Shown: piece by piece, positions 28,650-48,735 of the stretch
Numbering within the stretch: the stretch's first letter is position 1
How the letters are laid out: each line of letters starts with the position of its first letter
From: Thermasporomyces composti
GTDB taxonomy: Bacteria > Actinomycetota > Actinomycetes > Propionibacteriales > Actinopolymorphaceae
Length of the DNA stretch: 64,000 nucleotides
NCBI RefSeq assembly: GCF_003386795.1
Contig: NZ_QTUC01000001.1
Location: 1,736,001 to 1,800,000, forward strand
Direction of reading: 5' to 3'
Translations under genes and position numbers: made by a program
Notes under the pieces: model-generated
Database searches by the model: none
What the model saw: the letters and a program-made list of their open reading frames with translations, nothing else
What the model was told of the DNA's origin: nothing

Positions 28650-29681
28650 CTAGCGCACCACGACGGCGTACTCACCTCGGGGAACCAGCTCCCCGATCAC
28701 CGGCGCGCCAGGGATCTCACCGGCGACCAGCAGGCCGCCGGACGTCTGGGCGTCCGCGAGCAGCAGCGCCTCGTCCGTGCTCACAGCGGACAGGTCGGTC
28801 CACGGCGCCACCCAGTCCAGGTTGCGCCGCGTCCCGCCGCTCACGTAGCCGTCCCGCAGCGCCTCCCGCGCCCCCTCGAGATACGGGACAGCGGCGGAGT
28901 CGACGATCGCCGTGACACCGCTGGCTCGCGCCAGCTTGTACAGGTGTCCGAGCAGGCCGAACCCGGTGACGTCGGTGGCGCACCGGATACCCGCCTGCAC
29001 CGCCGCCCGCGCGGCGTCCCGGTTCAGCGTCGCCATCGTCTCGACGGCCTGCGGGAACACCTCGCCCGTCGCCTTGTGCCGGGAGTTGAGGACGCCGATC
29101 CCCAGCGGCTTGGTCAAGGACAGCGGCAGACCGGGACGTCCGGCGTCGTTGCGCATCACCTGGTCCGGGCGCACGACGCCGGTGACCGCCATGCCGTACT
29201 TCGGCTCCGGGTCGTCGACGCTGTGCCCACCCGCGACGTGACACCCGGCCTGGTTCGCCACCGCGAGCCCGCCGCGCAGCACCTCCGTCGCCAGCTCGAA
29301 CGGCAGGACGTCCCGCGGCCAAGCCAGCAGGTTGAGCGCCACGACGGGGCGTCCGCCCATCGCGTAGACGTCGGACAACGCGTTGGCCGCCGCGATGCGG
29401 CCCCAGTCGTACGGGTCGTCGACGACGGGAGTGAAGAAGTCCGTGGTGGCCACCACCGCGAGCCCGTCGCTCAGCCCGACGACGGCGGCGTCGTCACCGG
29501 CGTCGAGCCCGACGAGCAGGTCGCCGACGGGTTGGTCACCGCCGACGGCGGACGTCTCGGCGCTCGCCGTCGACCTCGCGAGGCCGGCGACGATGGTCTC
29601 CAGCTCGCCCGGTGGGATCTTGCACGCGCAGCCGCCGCCGTGGGCGTACTGGGTGAGGCGCACGGCACTCGTCGTCGTCAT
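28650..29681 (-). CDS. selD: Selenide, water dikinase
   Basis: SelD makes selenophosphate from selenide and ATP, the selenium donor for tRNA-Sec synthesis. The 343-residue protein has the N-terminal catalytic segment GGGCACKIPP with Cys18 (where some species have Sec), Cys20 and Lys21. It also has the ATP-binding acidic motifs VGLDAGDDAAVVGL and TDFFTPVVDDPYDWG, and VAGGHSVDDPEPKYG. The ATG at 29681 is chosen because SelD homology begins at its MTTTSAVRLTQYAHGGG; the frame is open 78 nt further upstream. It is divergent from selC-selA-selB, completing the pathway in one locus. Confidence 0.96.
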   Translation of the reverse strand: MTTTSAVRLTQYAHGGGCACKIPPGELETIVAGLARSTASAETSAVGGDQPVGDLLVGLDAGDDAAVVGLSDGLAVVATTDFFTPVVDDPYDWGRIAAANALSDVYAMGGRPVVALNLLAWPRDVLPFELATEVLRGGLAVANQAGCHVAGGHSVDDPEPKYGMAVTGVVRPDQVMRNDAGRPGLPLSLTKPLGIGVLNSRHKATGEVFPQAVETMATLNRDAARAAVQAGIRCATDVTGFGLLGHLYKLARASGVTAIVDSAAVPYLEGAREALRDGYVSGGTRRNLDWVAPWTDLSAVSTDEALLLADAQTSGGLLVAGEIPGAPVIGELVPRGEYAVVVR

Positions 29682-29776
29682 GTCGCCATGGTGACCACCC
29701 ACCACGCGCCGCGACAGCCTGACACGCGAGAGTGACGAGAAGCGGTCAAACTGCCACAATGACGACCATGCCCCGG

Positions 29777-29868
29777 GGAGGCGTCTCCGGCCTGGTGGCC
29801 GGCACGGTCTTCAACACCGATGAGCGGCAGGTCCTGTCGCTGGCGGGTTCGATTCCCGTCCGCCTCCG
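29777..29868 (+). tRNA. selC: tRNA-Sec (anticodon UCA)
   Basis: This 92-nt gene folds as a bacterial selenocysteine tRNA. The acceptor stem is GGAGGCG/CGCCTCC (29777-29783/29861-29867) with discriminator G29868. The D stem is long, CCGGCC/GGCCGG (6 bp) with a 4-nt TGGT loop. The anticodon loop is CTTCAAC with TCA at 29811-29813. The extra arm is an 8-bp stem, AGCGGCAG/CTGTCGCT, and the T loop is TTCGATT. Acceptor plus T helix totals 13 pairs, as in SelB-dependent tRNA-Sec (12 in ordinary tRNAs); read strictly as 8+5, one acceptor pair is a T-C mismatch. CCA is not encoded. Confidence 0.93.
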
Positions 29869-29910
29869 CTACCGCGCGCACCCCTGCCCGCGCACCAGCC
29901 GGGAGCGGTG

Positions 29911-31233
29911 ATGAGCGACACCCGACGACACGTCCCGCGCACCGACGCGGTCCTCGCCCACCCGCAGATCGCTCACGCGATGTGCGTGCTCGGCCGAGCG
30001 ACGGTCAAGGCCACCGTGGCGGCCGTCCAGGAGCAGGCGCGGGCGGGACGGGTCGCGCCGGATGAGGTGGTCAGCGTGGTCCTCGCCTCCCTGCCGGAGC
30101 GCGCCACCACGCTGAGCCCGGTCGTCAACGCCACCGGCGTCCTGGTCCACACCAACCTCGGCCGCGCGCCACTCTCGCGGGCGGCTCGCGACGCCATCGA
30201 CGTCGCGACGGGGTCGACCGACGTCGAGTTCGACCTCGCCACCGGAGCCCGGGCGCGCCGCGGCCGGGGCGCCCTCGCCGCGCTCGCCGAGGCCGTGCCG
30301 GACGCGGAGGCCGTCCACGTCGTCAACAACAACGCGGCCGCGCTCCTGCTCACCGCGATGGCGCTGGCGGGTGACGCCGACATCCTGCTCAGCCGTGGGG
30401 AGTTCGTGGAGATCGGCGACGGCTTCCGCATCCCCGAGCTGCTCGGGGCGAGCGGAGCTCGTATCCGCGAGGTCGGCACCACCAACCGAACGACCCTCGA
30501 GGACTACCGACGGGCGCTCGGCGAGCGGACCGCGTTCATCCTCAAGGTGCATCCGTCGAACTTCGTCGTTCGCGGGTTCACCGCGAGCGTGAGCGTCGCC
30601 GAGCTCGCCACGCTGGGCGTCCCCGTCGTGGTCGACATCGGGTCCGGCTTGCTCCGCCCGCACCCCTTGTTGCCGAACGAGCCGGACGCCGCGAGCACCC
30701 TGCGCGCCGGCGCGACCCTGGTCACCGCGAGCGGGGACAAGCTGCTCGGCGGACCGCAGTGCGGCCTCCTTCTCGGTTCCGCGGACGTGGTGGAGCGGCT
30801 GCGCCGCCACCCGGTGGCCCGTGCGCTGCGGGTCGACAAGCTCACCCTCGCCGCGCTCGAGGCCACCCTGCGCGGGCCGGCGCCACCGGTGACAGTCGCC
30901 CTCGAGACGAAGGAGGACGAGCTGCGCGTCCGGGCCGAACGCCTCGCGAAGACCCTGGCCGACGAGGGTATCGACGCGGAGGTCGTCCGCTGCCACTCGG
31001 CGATCGGCGGGGGTGGCGCCCCCGACGTCGAGCTGCCCAGCTGGGGTATCGGCGTCCCGGCCGCCTGGGCGCGCGAGCTGCGGACCGGTTCCCCACCCGT
31101 GGTCGGGCGGGTGCGACGCGGTCGCTGTGTCCTCGACCTGCGCACGGTCGCACCCGACGACGACGCCCGCCTGCTGGCGGCGGTTCGCGCCGTTCACCAC
31201 CGGCGGAAGGGCGAGCGGACGTGGACGTCGTAG
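29911..31233 (+). CDS. selA: L-seryl-tRNA(Sec) selenium transferase
   Basis: SelA is a PLP enzyme that converts Ser-tRNA(Sec) to Sec-tRNA(Sec) with selenophosphate. The 440-residue protein matches family length. It contains VNATGVLVHTNLGRAPLS, the VHVVNNNAAALLL region, RIREVGTTNRT and the PLP-lysine motif SGDKLLGGPQCGLLLG. The ATG has GGAG five bases upstream; a GTG immediately before it is less well placed. It begins 42 nt after selC, probably on one transcript, and overlaps selB by 13 nt. Confidence 0.96.
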   Translation: MSDTRRHVPRTDAVLAHPQIAHAMCVLGRATVKATVAAVQEQARAGRVAPDEVVSVVLASLPERATTLSPVVNATGVLVHTNLGRAPLSRAARDAIDVATGSTDVEFDLATGARARRGRGALAALAEAVPDAEAVHVVNNNAAALLLTAMALAGDADILLSRGEFVEIGDGFRIPELLGASGARIREVGTTNRTTLEDYRRALGERTAFILKVHPSNFVVRGFTASVSVAELATLGVPVVVDIGSGLLRPHPLLPNEPDAASTLRAGATLVTASGDKLLGGPQCGLLLGSADVVERLRRHPVARALRVDKLTLAALEATLRGPAPPVTVALETKEDELRVRAERLAKTLADEGIDAEVVRCHSAIGGGGAPDVELPSWGIGVPAAWARELRTGSPPVVGRVRRGRCVLDLRTVAPDDDARLLAAVRAVHHRRKGERTWTS

Positions 31234-33044
31234 CGACCGCCGGTCACGTCGACCACGGCAAGTCCACCCTGGTCCGCGCGCTCACCGGCATGGAGCCTGA
31301 CCGGTGGGAGGAAGAACGCCGGCGTGGTCTCACCCTCGACTTGGGCTTCGCATGGACGACGTTGCCCGGCGGGCACGAGGTGGCGTTCGTCGACGTCCCG
31401 GGGCACGAACGCTTCGTGCCCACCATGCTGGCGGGCGTGGGCCCCGTCCCGGCGACGATGTTCGTGGTCGCGGCCGACGAGGGCTGGCGACCTCAGTCGG
31501 CGGAGCACCTGGCCGCTCTCGACGCGATCGGGGTGCGCCACGGTGTCCTCGTCATCACCCGCTCCGACCTCGCCGACCCCGCGCCGGCCACCGCCGAGGC
31601 GCTGGACCACCTGTCCGGCACCACGTTGGCCGGGCTGCCGGCGGTCGCGGTGAGCGCCCTGACCGGTGCCGGCTTGGACGAGCTCCGCGCCGAGCTGGCC
31701 CGGCTCGCCAACCGGATACCCGCCGCGGACACCGAGGCCGACGTCCGCCTGTGGATCGACCGGGTGTTCACCATCCACGGCGCGGGCACCGTGGTCACCG
31801 GCACGCTCGGCGCCGGCACCCTGCACACCGACGACGAGCTGGAGGTGTCCACGACGGGTCAGCGGGTGCGGATCCGAGGGCTGCAGACGCTCAAGCGGGA
31901 GCGCACCCGCGTCCCGGCCCCGGCACGGGTCGCGGTGAACCTGCGCGGCGTCGAGCGTGGCGCGCTGGCGCGCGGCGTCGCGCTCCTCACACCGACTGTC
32001 TGGCCCCGCACCACGGTGGTCGACGTCGCTTTGCGGTACGCCGGGGAGGTGAGGCTGCCCACCCACGTGGTGCTGCACGTGGGGTCGGCGGCGGTGCCCG
32101 CCCGACTGCGTCCCTTGGGGGCGAGCTCCGAGGTGGCGCGGCTGACCCTCGCCCACCCGCTTCCGCTCCGCGCCGGCGACCGCGGCGTGCTCCGCGATCC
32201 GGGCCGGCAGCGTGGCGAGGAGCGGGTCGTCGCCGGAGCCGTGGTGCTCGACGTCCATCCACCCGAGCTGCGCCGACGCGGCGCGGCTCGGGCACGTGCG
32301 GCCGACCTGGCCGAGATCGGCCGGACCGCCGCGCGGTTCGCGGGACTCGACCGGGAGCGTCTCGCGACGCTGCAGCTCCGTCACCGAGGCTTCCTCCGCT
32401 CGGCCGAGTTCCGCGCGATGGGGCTGCCGCCCGCGGGCACCAACGTGGCCGGCGACTGGTGGGTCGACCCGGCGCGCTGGGCGGACCTCACCGCCCGGAT
32501 CCCCACGGTGGTGACCGAGTGGCTCGACCGAGACCCGGTCGCCGCGGGCGTGCCGGCCGAGGTGGTACGCCGACGGTTCGGGCTGCCCGCCGACCTCGTC
32601 GACCTCGCGGTCCGGGCGGCAGGTCTCCGCCTCCGCGACGGCCGCGTGCGCCGCTCCGACGCCACCGCGCTTCCACCCCACGTCGACCAGGCCGTCACCA
32701 CGCTCGAGAAGGAGCTGGCGGACGCGCCTTTCGCCGCCCCGGACGCGCACCGGCTCGCCGCGCTCGGGCTCGGCACCCGCGAGCTGGCCGCCGCGGTACG
32801 GGCCGGCCGCCTGCGCAGGATCGCGGACGGCGTCGTCCTCCTCCCCGACGCGGTCGAGCAGGCCCGGCACGTCCTCGCCGACCTCCCTCAGCCGTTCACG
32901 CTCAGCCAGGCCAAGACCGCCTTGCGGACCACCCGTCGCGTCGCCGTCCCGCTCATGGAGCTCCTCGACCGTGAGGGCATCACCGAACGCCTGCCCGACG
33001 GCACCCATCGCCTGAACCGACCACCCGGCCGTCGAGTGAGCTGA
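31221..33044 (+). CDS. selB: Selenocysteine-specific elongation factor SelB
   Basis: SelB carries Sec-tRNA(Sec) to the ribosome and recognises the mRNA SECIS hairpin. The 607-residue protein begins VDVVATAGHVDHGKSTLVRA (G1), has the switch motif LTLDLGFAW, G3 DVPGHERF and G4 TRSD (in place of the usual NKxD). EF-Tu-like domains II-III follow, then a C-terminal series of winged-helix domains from about residue 370. GTG 31221 is the start because the GTPase begins there; the frame is open far upstream but that stretch overlaps selA. It overlaps the selA stop by 13 nt, so the two are coupled. Confidence 0.95.
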   Translation: MDVVATAGHVDHGKSTLVRALTGMEPDRWEEERRRGLTLDLGFAWTTLPGGHEVAFVDVPGHERFVPTMLAGVGPVPATMFVVAADEGWRPQSAEHLAALDAIGVRHGVLVITRSDLADPAPATAEALDHLSGTTLAGLPAVAVSALTGAGLDELRAELARLANRIPAADTEADVRLWIDRVFTIHGAGTVVTGTLGAGTLHTDDELEVSTTGQRVRIRGLQTLKRERTRVPAPARVAVNLRGVERGALARGVALLTPTVWPRTTVVDVALRYAGEVRLPTHVVLHVGSAAVPARLRPLGASSEVARLTLAHPLPLRAGDRGVLRDPGRQRGEERVVAGAVVLDVHPPELRRRGAARARAADLAEIGRTAARFAGLDRERLATLQLRHRGFLRSAEFRAMGLPPAGTNVAGDWWVDPARWADLTARIPTVVTEWLDRDPVAAGVPAEVVRRRFGLPADLVDLAVRAAGLRLRDGRVRRSDATALPPHVDQAVTTLEKELADAPFAAPDAHRLAALGLGTRELAAAVRAGRLRRIADGVVLLPDAVEQARHVLADLPQPFTLSQAKTALRTTRRVAVPLMELLDREGITERLPDGTHRLNRPPGRRVS

Positions 33045-33291: not shown

Positions 33292-34104
33292 ATGCCGAGA
33301 CCCGTCGCGAATCGCCGAGCGTTCACCGTGATGACCCTCGCCACGCTCGCCGGCTCCCTCGGCGCGACAGCGGCACACGCTCACACGACGGACGCGATCA
33401 CGACGACGGCGTCCGCGCCGGCGCCGAGCAAGGGCTTGCCGGATCACGCCGCGGACGCGCGGCGACTCTTCGAGGAGCTGACCAAGCAGTGGCCGGCGAA
33501 CCGCACGATCAACGTCGTCTTCCACGGCCACAGCGTCCCGGCCGGCTACCACCAGACCCCGGAGGTGAAGCCCTTCGAGTCCTACCCGTTCATGGTGTAC
33601 CAGGGCTTGAACGCGCGCTTCCCGACCGCGGTGGTCAACACCATCGTCACCGCGATCGGCGGCGAGCACTCAGCTCAGGGAGCGGCGCGTTTCCGCCGCG
33701 ATGTGCTGAGCCATCGGCCGGACCTGCTGTTCATCGACTACGCCATCAACGACACGAACCTCTCGCCCGACGAGATGGAGCGGGCGTGGCGCGACATGAT
33801 CACGACGGCGCGGAAGAACCACGTCGTCGTCGTCCTCGTCACGCCCACGGGAACCGTGCCGCACGACCTCGGCGACCCGGCCGACCCGCTCAGCGTTCGG
33901 GCCGAGGTGATCCGGGGCCTGGGCCGGAGGTTCGGCCTCCCCGTCGCGGACGTGAGCGCCCGCTGGCAGGAGGCGATCGACGCCGGGACACCGAAGGAGT
34001 CACTGCTGAGCCACTACTACCACCCCAACAAGGCGGGCCACGAGATCGCCGCGGCGGAGATCCTGGCCACCCTCGACCGACTGCGCGCCGAGACGTCGTC
34101 CTGA
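33292..34104 (+). CDS. Secreted SGNH/GDSL-type hydrolase
   Basis: This extracellular esterase-like protein of 270 residues has an N-terminal export signal (NRRAFTVMTLATLAGSLG, possibly Tat because of the RR-x-F pattern, ending AAHAHT). The SGNH blocks follow: the Ser in FHGHSVPAG, Gly in IGGEHSAQG, Asn in DYAINDTN, and His in YYHPNKAGHEIA. ATG 33292 has AGGAG nine bases upstream; an ATG six bases earlier is also possible. The substrate (carbohydrate ester, lipid) cannot be called. Tandem 17-bp repeats upstream may control it. Confidence 0.82.
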   Translation: MPRPVANRRAFTVMTLATLAGSLGATAAHAHTTDAITTTASAPAPSKGLPDHAADARRLFEELTKQWPANRTINVVFHGHSVPAGYHQTPEVKPFESYPFMVYQGLNARFPTAVVNTIVTAIGGEHSAQGAARFRRDVLSHRPDLLFIDYAINDTNLSPDEMERAWRDMITTARKNHVVVVLVTPTGTVPHDLGDPADPLSVRAEVIRGLGRRFGLPVADVSARWQEAIDAGTPKESLLSHYYHPNKAGHEIAAAEILATLDRLRAETSS

Positions 34105-34283
34105 GACGACATGGGATTGGTGAGGCAACCCGGTCCGCTTCCGGCCCGGTCCGGAGCTTCCTCGCCGTTGACCTCCCCGGCGTCGCCACGATCGCTACGC
34201 TGGGGAGTCAGAGCCTGTGCGCGCCGATCCCGTTTGCCTGGAGGACCCGCGGGAAGGTGTCGCCAGAAGTCACGGAGGCGACC

Positions 34284-37200
34284 ATGGGCGTGAGACAGTG
34301 GATCGAAAGCTGGCCGGTCTACCGTCAGCTCACTGGCCCAGACCCGCTGGGACGTGGCACGGCGGTGATGTCGGCGAAGACCCGCGCGCTGACCAGCCGA
34401 ACCGCCCAGGCGGACCGGGTGGTGCAGTCGGTGTGCCCCTACTGCGCCGTCGGCTGTGGCCAGCGGATCTACGTCAAGGACGGTCGCATCACCCAGATCG
34501 AAGGCGATCCCGACTCGCCCATCTCCCGTGGCCGGCTGTGCCCGAAGGGCGCGGCCAGCAAACAGCTGGTGACGAGCCCGAACCGGGTCACGACCGTGCT
34601 CTACCGGCGTCCGTACGGCACCGAGTGGGAGCAGATCCCGCTCGAACAGGCGATGGACATGGTCGCCGACCGGGTGATTCGAACCAGGCGTGAGACATGG
34701 CAGGACGAGCTTGACGGTCGGCGAGTGCGGCGCACGATGGGCATCGCGAGCCTGGGCGGCGCGACGCTGGACATCGAAGAGAACTACTTGATGAAGAAGC
34801 TCTACACCGCCCTGGGGGCTATCCAGATCGAGAACCAGGCTCGTATTTGACACTCCTCCACGGTTCCCGGTCTGGGAACCTCCTTCGGTCGGGGCGGCGC
34901 CACGACGTTCCAGCAGGACCTCCAGAACGCCGACTGCATCGTCATCCAAGGCTCGAACATGGCCGAGTGCCACCCGGTCGGCTTCCAGTGGGTGATGGAG
35001 GCGAAGAACCGGGGAGCGACGATCATCCACGTCGACCCGAGGTTCACGCGAACGAGCGCGGTCGCCGACATTCATGTGCCGCTGCGGGCCGGGTCCGACA
35101 TCGCGTTCCTCGGTGCTCTCGTCAACCACGTCCTGCAGAACGAGCTGGACTTCCGCGAGTACGTCGTCGCCTACACGAACGCCTCGGCGATCCTGCGGGA
35201 GGACTTCCGCGACACCGAGGACCTCGACGGCGTCTTCTCCGGCTACGACCCGGAGAGCAGGCACTACGACACGCACAGCTGGATGTACGACGGGGAGCCC
35301 ATCGACATCCCCGCGGACGGGGAGCGCGGTCCACGGGCCGGCGCGACCGGGGGTCGGGTCCACGGCGAGACGGCCCGCTCGGAGACCTACGGCAGCGGTG
35401 GCGCGGCCCTCCGCGCCCGTCCCCGGCACGACCCGACCCTGCGCCATCCCCGCTGCGTCTACCAGGTCCTCAAGCGCCACTTCGCCCGGTACACGCCCGA
35501 GCTGGTGGAGGAGGTGTGCGGGGTCCCCCGCGAGCTGTTCCTGCGGGTGGCGCGGGCCATCACCGAGAACTCCGGCCGGGACCGCACGACGGCGTTCTGC
35601 TACTCGGTCGGCTGGACCCAGCACACCGTGGGAGTCCAGTACATCCGGACCGCCGCGATCCTGCAGACCTTGCTCGGCAACATCGGCCGACCAGGCGGGG
35701 GGATCTTGGCGCTGCGCGGTCACGCCAGCATCCAGGGCTCGACCGACGTCCCGACGCTGTTCAACCTCCTGCCCGGCTACCTGCCGATGCCGCACGCCAC
35801 GGTGCACACCGACCTCGACAGCTACACCGCGGTGGACTCGGCGCAGGTGGGGTTCTGGGGCAACATGCGCTCCTACGCCGTGAGCCTGCTCAAGGCCTGG
35901 TGGGGTGACACCGCGACCGCGGAGAACGACTTCTGCTTCGACTACCTGCCCCGCATCACCGGCAACCACGGCACGTACCAGACGGTGATGAACCAGCTGT
36001 CCGGCGAGTGCCGGGGCTACTTCCTCGCCGGCGAGAACCCGGCCGTCGGGTCGGCGAACGCCAAGCTGCAACGACTCGGCATGGCCAACCTCGACTGGCT
36101 GGTCGTCCGCGACTTGCGGCTGATCGAGAGCGCGACGTTCTGGAAGGACGGGCCAGAGATCGAGACCGGCGAGCTGAAACCGGAGGAGATCCCGACCGAG
36201 GTGTTCTTCTTCCCCGCCGCGTCCCACGCCGAGAAGGAGGGCACGTTCACCAACACGCAGCGGCTGCTGCAGTGGCGTCACAAGGCGGTCGACCCGCCCG
36301 GCGACGCCCGCAGCGACCTGTGGTTCTACTTCCACCTGGGTCGGCTCATCAAGGAGAAGCTGGCGGGCTCGACCGACGAGCGCGACCGCCCGCTCCTCGA
36401 CCTCGTCTGGGACTACCCGACCCACGGCCCCACCGCCGAGCCCAGCGCGGAGGCCGTGCTGCGGGAGATCAACGGAGTCGGGCCGGACGGCGCCGCCCTC
36501 TCCTCCTACACCGAGCTCAGGGACGACGGCTCCACCAGGTGCGGCACGTGGATCTACTGCGGGGTCTACGCCGGCGAGCGCAACCACGCGGCCAACCGTC
36601 GTCCGGCTCGGGAGCAGAGCTGGGTCGCCCCCGAGTGGGGGTGGGCCTGGCCGGCCAACCGCCGCATCCTCTACAACCGCGCCTCCGCCGACCCCCAGGG
36701 CCGGCCGTGGAGCGACCGGAAAAAGTACGTGTGGTGGGACGCCGAGCGCGGCACGTGGACCGGAGTCGACGTCCCCGACTTCGAGCCGACCAAGCCGCCC
36801 GACTACCAGCCGCCGGAGGGCGCCCGGGCCGAGCGTGGCCTGGCCGGCACGGATCCGTTCATCATGCAGCCGGATGGCAAGGCGTGGCTGTTTGCGCCGT
36901 CCGGCCTGGTCGACGGTCCCCTGCCGACTCACTACGAGCCAGCCGAGTCGCCCTTCGACAACCCGCTGTACGGCCAGCGGTCCAACCCGGTCCGCGGCAC
37001 CTACCCCGACCCCCACAACCGCTACCAGCCCAGCGGGAGCGAGCCGGGCAGCGAGGTGTTCCCGTACGTCCTCACCACCTACCGTCTCACCGAGCACCAC
37101 ACGGCGGGCGGGATGAGCCGGTTCCTGCCGTACCTGTCGGAGCTCCAACCGGAGTTCTTCTGCGAGGTCTCGCCCGAGCTCGCCGCCGAGCGTGGGCTCA

Positions 37201-37655
37201 CCCACCTGGGCTGGGCGACGATCGTGACCGCGCGGACGGCGGTGGAGGCGCTGGTCCTCGTCACCGAGCGCATCCCCAGCCTACGGATCCGTGGGCGCAC
37301 CGTGCACCAGGTAGGCCTGCCGTACCACTGGGGACCGAACGGGCTCGTCGTCGGGGACGCGGCCAACGAGCTGCTCGCCGTGGTCCTCGACCCCAACGTC
37401 CACATCCAGGAGTCGAAGGCCGCGACGTGTGACATCCGGCCAGGACGCCGCCCCCGGGGCCGGGACCTGCTGGACCTCGTGGCCGACTACCGCGCCCGGG
37501 CCGGCGTCACCGAGCTGACCGGGCTGAACGGCGGCTCGGCGGACGGCAGGACCCCGAGGGACGCCAGGACCGCGCACGGCACCGTCGCCCCCGGCGACGC
37601 TCCCCCAGACACGGACGGTACGGACGGGCCGACCCGGAAGGAGCCACCCCGATGA
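34284..37655 (+). CDS. fdhA: Formate dehydrogenase catalytic subunit, selenoprotein
   Basis: This molybdopterin (or tungsten) enzyme oxidises formate to CO2. It is read through an in-frame TGA (34848-34850) as selenocysteine 189, giving 1123 residues. An N-terminal [4Fe-4S] site is formed by Cys51, Cys54, Cys58 (CPYCAVGCG) and Cys86 (RLCPKG). Sec189 sits in QARIUHSSTVPGLG, the active-site position of Sec-type formate dehydrogenases, with His190 next to it. The molybdopterin domains and the C-terminal dinucleotide-binding domain (LTEHHTAGGMSRFLP) follow. No Tat signal is present, unlike exported FdnG. ATG with CGGAGG upstream. The ATGA overlap with fdhB shows an operon. A SECIS follows the TGA directly. 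Confidence 0.95.
34848..34880 (+). promoter_or_regulatory. Selenocysteine UGA codon and bacterial SECIS element
   Basis: The UGA is followed after 11 nt by a perfect stem, GGTTCCC (34862-34868) and GGGAACC (34874-34880), around the loop GGTCT (34869-34873). The E. coli fdhF SECIS has the same GGUCU loop at the same distance, which SelB contacts. The codons after it encode HSSTVPGLGTSFG, so the hairpin is coding as well. Confidence 0.93.
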
Positions 37656-38572
37656 GCAACCGGTTGGCCGGGCCGCTGGCTGACCCGGCCAAGGACGCTG
37701 GCCATCCCGACGACCACCCGCCACGGGTCGGGTTCTTCACCGACACCTCGCTGTGCATCGGGTGCAAGGCGTGCGAGGTCGCGTGCAAGGAGTGGAACAT
37801 GCTGCCCGACGACGGCATGCAGCTCCTCGGCCACTCCTACGACAACACCGGGGCCCTCGGGGCGAGCACGTGGCGGCACGTGGCGTTCGTCGAGCAGCGA
37901 GTTCCTCGCCACGGCCCTCCGGTCGACCTCGGGATGCCCACCGTCGGCCCTCCGGCGTCGGCGTCCGACTCGACCGCGACCGACACCGCCGAGAACGGTG
38001 ACGGGACGTCGCTCCGCTGGCTGATGGCGAGCGACGTCTGCAAGCACTGCACGCACGCCGCCTGCCTCGACGTCTGTCCGACCGGCGCGCTGTTCCGCAC
38101 CGAGTTCGGCACCGTCGTCGTCCAGAACGACGTGTGCAACGGCTGCGGCTACTGCGTGTCGGCATGTCCCTACGGCGTCATCGACATTCGGCCCGGCGAC
38201 GGCGGCGCGTACAAGTGCACCCTGTGCTACGACCGCCTGCGGGACGGCCTCGAGCCGGCGTGCGCCAAGGCCTGCCCCACCGACTCGATCCAGTTCGGGG
38301 AGCTGGACGAGCTGCGGCGCCGAGCCCGGCGGCGGATCCGCGAGCTCCAAGCCGCGGGCGTGGAGACAGCACAGCTCTACGGCGACGACCCCGACGACGG
38401 AGTGGGTGGCGACGGCGCCTTCTTCCTCCTCCTCGACGAGCCGGAGGTCTACGGGCTGCCGCCGGACCCGGTCGTCACCACCAAGGATCTGCCTTCGATG
38501 TGGCGGCACGCGGCCGTCGCGGCGCTGGCCGTGGCGGCGGGCGTGGTCGCCTCGTTCCTGGGACGGCGGTGA
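37652..38572 (+). CDS. fdhB: Formate dehydrogenase iron-sulfur subunit
   Basis: This 306-residue electron-transfer subunit has four [4Fe-4S] clusters. The Cys motifs are CIGCKACEVAC (Cys35, 38, 41, 45), CKHCTHAACLDVCP, CNGCGYCVSACP and CTLCYDRLRDGLEPACAKACP. The C-terminus ends in a hydrophobic anchor (WRHAAVAALAVAAGVVASFL), which would tie the complex to the membrane. An ATGA overlap joins it to fdhA, and the next gene starts three bases after its stop. It passes electrons from FdhA to the membrane subunit. Confidence 0.93.
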   Translation: MSNRLAGPLADPAKDAGHPDDHPPRVGFFTDTSLCIGCKACEVACKEWNMLPDDGMQLLGHSYDNTGALGASTWRHVAFVEQRVPRHGPPVDLGMPTVGPPASASDSTATDTAENGDGTSLRWLMASDVCKHCTHAACLDVCPTGALFRTEFGTVVVQNDVCNGCGYCVSACPYGVIDIRPGDGGAYKCTLCYDRLRDGLEPACAKACPTDSIQFGELDELRRRARRRIRELQAAGVETAQLYGDDPDDGVGGDGAFFLLLDEPEVYGLPPDPVVTTKDLPSMWRHAAVAALAVAAGVVASFLGRR

Positions 38573-38575
38573 GCC

Positions 38576-39487
38576 ATGCGCGCGGAGCGACCGACGGTGC
38601 CCCCTGCGACGTTCCGGTCCTACTACGGACGCCCGATCCTCAAGGAGCCGCCGTGGAAGGTTCCCGACGTCCCGCTCTACCTCTTCCTCGGCGGGTTGGC
38701 CGGAGCCTCCGCGTCCGCGGCGGCGTTGGCTGACCTGACCCGTCGGCCTGAGCTGGCCCGGGTCAGCCGGTACGCCGCGGCGGTGGCCTCCTCCTCCAGC
38801 GTCCTCGCCCTCATCCACGACCTGGGCCGGCCGCGGCGGTTCCTCAACATGCTGCGAGTCCTGAAGCCCACCTCGCCACTGTCGGTGGGATCGTGGATCC
38901 TGGCTCCCTTCTCCGCCGTCGCGGCCACAGCCGCGGCGTCCGAGCTGACGGGCGTCCTGCCTCGCTGGGGCCGCGCCGCCGGGATGGTCGCCGGCGTCCT
39001 GGGTCCGGCGATGTCCACCTACACCTCGGTGCTGCTCGCCAACACCGCGGTCCCGGCGTGGCACGAGTACTACCCGGAGCTGCCGTTCGCCTTCGGCGGG
39101 AGCGCGCTCGCCACCGCCGGCGGCGCCGCGCTGCTGGCCACGCCGCTCGCCGAGTCGGGCCCGGCGCGCCGGATGGCGGTCGTGGGCGCGGGCATGGAGC
39201 TGGCCGCACTCCGTCGCATCGAGCGTCGCGGCGGCATCGTCGGCGAGCCCTACCGGACCGGGTTGCCGCGTCGCCTGTTCACCGCGGGGCGGGCGCTCAC
39301 CAGCGTCGGCGCGGGTCTGGCGCTGACGGGGCGGCGCACCCGAGCCGCGACGGTCGCGGCCGGCGTGGCGCTGCTCGCCGGAGGGCTGTGCATGCGCTTC
39401 GGCGTCTTCTACGCCGGGCGGGCCTCGGCTCGCGACCCCAAGTACGTCGTCCTCCCGCAGCGGGAGCGGCGCCGCCGGCACGCCTGA
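38576..39487 (+). CDS. NrfD-family membrane subunit of formate dehydrogenase
   Basis: This 303-residue integral membrane protein of the NrfD/PsrC family has eight predicted hydrophobic segments, starting VPLYLFLGGLAGASASAAAL. NrfD subunits pass electrons to or from quinone, so this enzyme probably reduces menaquinone with electrons from formate. It contains no heme-binding pattern typical of the cytochrome b FdnI. It begins three bases after the fdhB stop. NrfD-type and FdnI-type subunits are alternatives in different formate dehydrogenases. Confidence 0.85.
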   Translation: MRAERPTVPPATFRSYYGRPILKEPPWKVPDVPLYLFLGGLAGASASAAALADLTRRPELARVSRYAAAVASSSSVLALIHDLGRPRRFLNMLRVLKPTSPLSVGSWILAPFSAVAATAAASELTGVLPRWGRAAGMVAGVLGPAMSTYTSVLLANTAVPAWHEYYPELPFAFGGSALATAGGAALLATPLAESGPARRMAVVGAGMELAALRRIERRGGIVGEPYRTGLPRRLFTAGRALTSVGAGLALTGRRTRAATVAAGVALLAGGLCMRFGVFYAGRASARDPKYVVLPQRERRRRHA

Positions 39488-43573: not shown

Positions 43574-45070
<1,497 letters not shown>

Positions 45071-46908: not shown

Positions 46909-47853
46909 CTACGTCGCGCGCAGGAGATGGTCGAGGACGACGAGCTGGGTGATGGCCAGCGACTCACTCCGGCGGCCATTGCCCACGTCGCCCAACGTCG
47001 CCACCGGGTCGCCGTCGCCCAGCCCGAGCCGAGACCAGATCGCCTTCTGGACCATACGACTCTCCTCGCGCGGGGCGTAGCCGTGGACGTGGAGCGCGTC
47101 GACAGGGATGCCGTCCTCGTCGCGGATCAACCGGAGCTGGACGGTCCGCTGCCCGATCTCGGCGAGCAGCCCGCGCAGGCCCGTGTGACGCACGGTGGGC
47201 CGAAGCATGAGCTCCACCGAGAGCGGCGAGTTCGACGTGTCGTCGTGGCCCTCCGCCGGCGCGAACCGGACCACGATGTCGGCGTGCGCGCGTTGCGGCC
47301 GGATGAACTGCGCCGACTCCGGCTCCCGGCGTTCCAGCTCGGCGAGCACCTGGTCGACGGTGTAGCCCCGTTTGCGGACGTCCCGGCTCACCTTCCACTC
47401 CCGACGGATGCGCTCGGGAGGGTCGAGGTAGACGGCGATGTCGAAGCAGGCTCGGGTCAGCTTCGAGTACAGCGGCAACAGTCCTTCGACGATGACGAAC
47501 TCCCGTGGCTCGACCAGCTCCGGTCGGGTGAGCTGACCGGTGTCGTGGTCGTACACCGGCTTGAGGATCGGCTGTCCCGTCGCGAGGAGCTGCAGGTGCT
47601 GCTCCATGATCTCGACGTAGTTGCACCGCGGGTGCAACGCCGTGAACGGCAGCCCCTTGCGCTCTTGCCGGTCGTACCGGTGGTAGTCGTCGACACAGAT
47701 CGTCGTCACACGTGACGCGCCCAGGGCCGCGGCGATCCCCTTCGTCAAGGTGGTCTTGCCCGCCGCGCTGTCGCCGGCGATCGCGACCATGACGGGACGC
47801 CGGGCCGACGAGTGATCGCGGGTCCGTTCCATCCGGATCACCTTGTGCGGCAT
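46909..47853 (-). CDS. prk: Phosphoribulokinase
   Basis: This kinase makes ribulose 1,5-bisphosphate from ribulose 5-phosphate and ATP, the substrate of RuBisCO. The 314-residue protein has Walker A AGDSAAGKTTL, the catalytic region CVDDYHRYDRQERKG, HPRCNYVEIM and the Walker B-like FVIVEGLLPLYS, consistent with the PRK/uridine kinase fold and PRK length. ATG 47853 follows GAGGGGGGC. It converges on cbbX rather than being in its operon. Its presence shows that RuBisCO here serves the Calvin cycle and not a salvage pathway. Confidence 0.92.
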   Translation of the reverse strand: MPHKVIRMERTRDHSSARRPVMVAIAGDSAAGKTTLTKGIAAALGASRVTTICVDDYHRYDRQERKGLPFTALHPRCNYVEIMEQHLQLLATGQPILKPVYDHDTGQLTRPELVEPREFVIVEGLLPLYSKLTRACFDIAVYLDPPERIRREWKVSRDVRKRGYTVDQVLAELERREPESAQFIRPQRAHADIVVRFAPAEGHDDTSNSPLSVELMLRPTVRHTGLRGLLAEIGQRTVQLRLIRDEDGIPVDALHVHGYAPREESRMVQKAIWSRLGLGDGDPVATLGDVGNGRRSESLAITQLVVLDHLLRAT

Positions 47854-48072
47854 GGTCGCCCCCCTCGGTGGACACGTCACTGCCCTCGACACTGCCCTCG
47901 ACGATCCCCTCGTCCCGACCGTAGGCGCTCGTCGGCGATCTCGGATCCCCCGGGCGGGGGTCACCGCGGGGGAGGACGAATCCGCCACGAACCCATGCAA
48001 ACGACCGCCACGGCGCGGCTCGCTGTCCGACAACCGCCCACTCCGTCCGGCCGACGCTCCTACCCTCGACCC

Positions 48073-48735
48073 ATGGGGACGCAGCCGCTGCGCCTGGTCA
48101 TGGTCGACGACCACGAAATGGTGCTGGAAGGGCTGAAAGCTCTCCTTGCGCGCTTTCCGGGCCGGGTTCGCGTGGTCGGGCAGGCGGTGAGCGCCGACGA
48201 GGCGGAGCCGCTCGTCGCCGCCCTCGACCCTGACGTCGTGGTGTCCGACGTTCGTCTACGCGGATCCGCCAGCGGGCTCGACCTGTGCCGGCGACTCGTC
48301 GAAGCCAACCCGGACCGACGCGTCGTCCTGCTCAGCGCCTACGACGACGAGCAGTACCTCTTCCAAGCGCTACGCGCCGGTGCCGCCGGCTACCTGCTGA
48401 AGTCCATCGACCGGGAGGAGCTGGTGCGCCAGCTGGAACGCGCGGCCAAGGGCGAGACCGTGGTCGACCCGACCATGGCCGGACGGGCGGCGGCCTCCGC
48501 GGCCCGGCTCCAGGCCGGCGAGTTCTGGCCCGGCGCCCACTTGAGCCTCACCCAGCGGGAGAGCGAGGTGCTCGGCTTCCTCGTCGCCGGCCTGTCGAAC
48601 CGCGCCATCGCGAGCAAGCTCGTCCTCGCCGAGGAGACGGTGAAGAGCCATGTCCGGGCGATCTTCCGCAAGCTCGAGGTCAACGACCGCGCCGGCGCGG
48701 TCGCGGTGGCGCTGCGGGAAGGGCTCTACCAGTGA
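48073..48735 (+). CDS. NarL/LuxR-family response regulator
   Basis: This 220-residue regulator has a receiver domain (Asp12, Asp13, phosphoacceptor Asp59 in VVVSDVRLRG, conserved Lys in YLLKS) and a C-terminal LuxR helix-turn-helix (LTQRESEVLGFLVAGLSNRA). It is coupled to the downstream histidine kinase through a 4-nt GTGA overlap. A TACCCT -10 hexamer at 48061 ends six bases before the ATG, so it may be leaderless. It is divergent from prk across 219 nt; control of the cbb genes is possible but unproven. Confidence 0.9.
   Translation: MGTQPLRLVMVDDHEMVLEGLKALLARFPGRVRVVGQAVSADEAEPLVAALDPDVVVSDVRLRGSASGLDLCRRLVEANPDRRVVLLSAYDDEQYLFQALRAGAAGYLLKSIDREELVRQLERAAKGETVVDPTMAGRAAASAARLQAGEFWPGAHLSLTQRESEVLGFLVAGLSNRAIASKLVLAEETVKSHVRAIFRKLEVNDRAGAVAVALREGLYQ

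Follow-up and report, generated by a model that had tools for sequence, protein, structure and literature searches.

The gene fdhA, on the forward strand of the window (the whole 64-kb stretch of DNA that was analysed), almost certainly encodes the alpha subunit of a selenoprotein formate dehydrogenase, with a genuine bacterial SECIS element and an in-frame UGA that is decoded as selenocysteine (Sec). This reading, put forward in an earlier note on the same DNA, is supported at the level of sequence by the open frame, the alignment of the UGA codon with the active-site Sec of known enzymes, the sel genes close by, the codon found at the same position in actinobacterial relatives and the covariation of a hairpin just beyond the UGA. 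The elements of the gene itself are as follows.

34284..37655, + strand: fdhA, formate dehydrogenase alpha subunit, 1123 amino acids with Sec189 (NF041513, TIGR01553 and formate dehydrogenases in the PDB)
34848..34850, + strand: UGA codon predicted to be read as selenocysteine, residue 189 (Sec alignment; homologous loci)
34862..34880, + strand: apical hairpin of the SECIS element, 7-bp stem and GGUCU loop (fold, covariation, covariance model R1)

The gene and its active site

When 34284-37655 is translated with the TGA read through, the 1123 residues are interrupted by one internal stop, TGA 34848-34850 at residue 189, and the ATG is preceded by GGAGG at 34274-34278. The translation bears out the claim that the frame is open on both sides of the TGA, and it contains all three of the motifs picked out by the earlier note (CPYCAVGCG, RLCPKG and HSSTVPGLG). 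A plain ORF caller had been expected to split the gene, and the 898-residue downstream ORF starting at 34959 does exist as described. This matters chiefly for annotation, since the catalytic subunit would be cut short, with the active site missing, by a caller unaware of Sec. Antisense to fdhA there is also a 1062-codon open frame (window 34017-37205, minus strand), which probably arises from the codon usage of high-GC DNA.

The product passes the curated cut-offs of both relevant family models over its full length and so belongs with the selenoprotein formate dehydrogenase alpha subunits, scoring 2007.6 bits against NF041513, formate_DH_Act (cut-off 1400, near full length), and 954.9 bits against TIGR01553 (cut-off 814.2), while its matches in the PDB are FDH-N and the formate dehydrogenases of D. 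gigas and D. vulgaris. The Sec of E. coli FdnG (1kqf) and that of the D. gigas enzyme (1h0h), each written X, stand opposite residue 189 in a shared QAR-x-Sec-His context, and the catalytic His follows directly, with U189-H190 aligned to the Sec-His of both structures. The alignment had been named beforehand as a point on which the reading could fail, and codon 189 proved to occupy the active-site position. The motif of Sec formate dehydrogenases has been given as UHxP (PMC13188914), whereas fdhA has UHSSTVP, with the P elsewhere, as do most of its actinobacterial relatives. One detail of the earlier note was misplaced, namely the peptide proposed for mass spectrometry from the TSLGGATL region: SLGGATL lies near residues 156-162, and the tryptic Sec peptide is IUHSSTVPGLGTSFGR, residues 188-203.

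The selenocysteine machinery

A complete Sec kit (tRNA-Sec, selA, selB and selD) is found within the window, about 1-6 kb upstream of fdhA.

28650..29759, - strand: selD, selenide water dikinase, Cys form (TIGR00476, 384 bits)
29777..29869, + strand: selC, tRNA-Sec with anticodon UCA (ARAGORN; Rfam RF01852, 73.7 bits)
29908..31233, + strand: selA, L-seryl-tRNA(Sec) selenium transferase (TIGR00474, 429.5 bits)
about 31200..33044, + strand: selB, Sec-specific elongation factor (TIGR00475, 282.4 bits, cut-off 242.25; PF09107)

The selB product ends in the SelB winged helix (PF09107 SelB-wing_3), and the start of the gene is near or overlaps the end of selA, its exact start codon not being fixed. 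The whole genome encodes a single tRNA-Sec and a single SelB; another tRNA-Sec-like match (53.6 bits) was rejected as a tRNA-Ser. With selC and selB in the genome, together with selA and selD, the organism has the gene set of a Sec decoder, and the fdhA product is the selenoprotein to be expected of a Sec-decoding actinobacterium. In the mechanism envisaged, SelB-GTP-Sec-tRNA(Sec) would dock on the GGUCU hairpin and Sec would be delivered once the ribosome had reached UGA 34848-34850.

The UGA might alternatively be read as some other residue, such as Cys or Trp, through near-cognate decoding that gives a Cys-like enzyme; Cys forms of the same enzyme do occur in relatives, and partial misreading is conceivable under selenium starvation. 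Set against the dedicated UCA tRNA-Sec, SelA, SelB and SelD adjoining fdhA, and against a SECIS whose covariation (below) speaks for selective maintenance, this alternative is very improbable, and decoding as Sec is preferred.

The hairpin and its conservation

The earlier note had described, 11 nt past the UGA, a GGTCT loop on a perfect stem of 7 bp, and precisely this is present, as GGTTCCC-GGTCT-GGGAACC at 34862-34880 behind a spacer of 11 nt (34851-34861). Neither strand of the window has another perfect hairpin of 7 bp and a 5-nt loop in which the loop reads GGTCT; with any loop allowed, there are 38. Covariance model R1 of the SECIS element scores the hairpin at 69.9 bits. A genome-wide search with the SECIS covariance model gave no second element of the same type, the next place reaching 17.2 bits (E 1.3); SECIS elements of another shape may still occur. 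Folded alone, the hairpin adopts exactly the expected structure (-11.2 kcal/mol, z -2.83), but a wider piece of 56 nt in this GC-rich DNA has a folding energy no better than that of shuffles (z +0.89), so that the case for the hairpin rests on conservation and covariation, with energy set aside. The published bSECIS consensus allows a loop of 3-9 nt, a stem of 4-16 bp and 16-37 nt from UGA to loop, with a G within the first two loop bases and an MFE of at most -7.5 kcal/mol (PMC13188914); the fdhA hairpin falls within it, with its 5-nt loop GGUCU, 7 bp, a loop placed 18 nt past the UGA and the folding energy given above.

Conservation was followed across 110 aligned actinobacterial loci, of which L001 is the locus in the window itself and the rest come from other actinobacterial genomes. 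The codon at the Sec position is TGA in 91 and TAG in 14, a stop in 105 of the 110, and it is a Cys codon (TGC or TGT) in the other 5. Were the UGA a true nonsense mutation or a sequencing error, and fdhA a pseudogene, an in-frame stop would likewise be seen; this stop, however, falls exactly at the catalytic residue, recurs throughout the phylum, in 105 of the 110 relatives, and is followed by a covarying hairpin, in a genome where tRNA-Sec and SelB are present. Because the UGA is conserved at the Sec position, the pseudogene reading was rejected and is scarcely credible, which leaves a functional Sec codon as the favoured explanation.

In every one of the 105 stop forms at least 6 of the 7 pairs of the hairpin are kept, with GGTCT, AGTCT or AGTTT as the loop, whereas in the five Cys forms the hairpin is degraded to 3-5 of 7 pairs. 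The outermost pair is formed in only about half of the relatives, so the conserved stem is of about 6 bp; the 7-bp stem of the earlier note thus stands for the window, where all seven pairs are perfect, and has to be shortened to about six of seven as a conserved feature. Among the stop forms covariation is seen at pair 4 (T-A, C-G, G-C, T-G, G-T) and pair 7 (C-G, G-C), both of which have their two bases at third codon positions, and compensatory changes lie mainly between such positions. Pairing in the stop forms amounts to 93.9%, compared with a mean of 87.9% and a maximum of 90.0% in shuffles. In a set of 42 diverse sequences, made up of 27 of the aligned loci and 15 more distant ones, covariation reaches a score of 0.323. 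The shuffles give 0.144, with none of 500 attaining the observed value, which also exceeds the scores of all slid versions of the hairpin (0.035-0.139). Shuffles ignore relatedness, which makes the slid control the fairer one, and the two controls agree; one sequence in the DNA alignment is 3 nt longer than the others, with the hairpin columns unaffected. On this comparative evidence the SECIS hairpin is maintained by selection.

In four of the five genomes with Cys forms (G038, G361, G396 and G398) the SelB match does not rise above the EF-Tu-like background, in contrast to the Sec-form genomes tested, where it does. The fifth, G397, has a Cys codon in its formate dehydrogenase (locus L107) and yet encodes SelB; it may possess another selenoprotein or may recently have lost Sec from the formate dehydrogenase gene. 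The TAG loci (L041, L042, L048, L058, L065, L070, L072, L074, L077, L086, L089, L095, L096 and L102) have the same hairpin, and 13 of them come from Blastococcus, Modestobacter and Geodermatophilus, the last from a Frankiales MAG.

Comparison with known systems

In E. coli fdhF the TGA is followed after 11 nt by GGTTGCAGGTCTGCACC, the same geometry as in fdhA here. It had been claimed that the hairpin follows the GGUCU rule with stem bases unlike those of E. coli, and this is accurate, the spacing and loop being those of fdhF and the stem sequence different. The likeness to FdnG and FdhF thus takes in the position of Sec in the alignment, the UGA, the 11-nt spacer and the hairpin with its GGUCU loop. 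The stem of the E. coli fdhF SECIS has a bulged U, which is missing in the stem here and in those of the relatives. Tentatively, and with the balance tilted against it, actinobacterial SelB might read a bulge-free SECIS hairpin, a slightly different rule of SelB-SECIS recognition from that of E. coli.

Closer precedents exist among the actinobacteria. Streptomyces incarnatus has a Sec FDH-O with a UGA directly followed by a SECIS and an adjoining selABCD cluster (PMC4498112), and in Actinomycetospora chiangmaiensis the removal of formic acid is selenium-dependent, proteomics having detected a membrane-bound Sec formate dehydrogenase (FDH1) along with SelA, SelB and SelD (PMC7176365). By their published descriptions, both resemble the present locus in having an in-frame UGA with a SECIS and sel genes beside the fdh operon, although gene order may vary between genomes among actinobacterial systems of the NF041513 family. 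The UAG-Sec formate dehydrogenases of Geodermatophilaceae are also already published (PMC5330540); they share the formate dehydrogenase family and the hairpin with fdhA, which differs in using UGA with a UCA tRNA-Sec. A family model for exactly this type of protein is available as NCBIfam NF041513, and the fdhA product matches it as the same alpha subunit along almost the entire length, with no difference of substance seen. The novelty implied when the gene was called "hidden" is therefore not supported in view of this dedicated model and the published precedents: the finding is correct but ordinary, the gene family and the UGA/SECIS trick both being well known.

The enzyme and its gene neighbourhood

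Two genes downstream of fdhA would supply its partner subunits.

37652..38572, + strand: fdhB, 4Fe-4S beta subunit (PF13247; TIGR01582, 183.6 bits, under the cut-off of 334.7)
38576..39487, + strand: NrfD-like membrane subunit (PF03916 NrfD, 9.3e-12)

The start of fdhB overlaps the fdhA stop, and its product has a C-terminal hydrophobic helix. With them the fdhA product, as catalytic subunit, would make up a membrane-linked Mo/W formate dehydrogenase (FdhA-FdhB-NrfD). Formate would be oxidised at an active site formed by Sec and the adjacent His, and the electrons would travel via the FeS subunit to the NrfD-like membrane protein and from there probably to menaquinone. The NrfD-like subunit, the probable quinone partner, stands where E. 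coli FDH-N has a cytochrome b subunit. A twin-arginine export signal is absent from the N terminus of the alpha subunit (window 34284-34420) and from those of the relatives examined; because this signal is missing, unlike in E. coli FdnG, the formate dehydrogenase probably faces the cytoplasm.

A RuBisCO large subunit gene and a phosphoribulokinase-family gene (window 43625-45070 and 46909-48114) lie farther downstream, some 6-10 kb from the formate dehydrogenase genes. Their position suggests that formate could supply both CO2 and electrons to carbon fixation, and it hints that the organism might grow on formate by way of the Calvin cycle.
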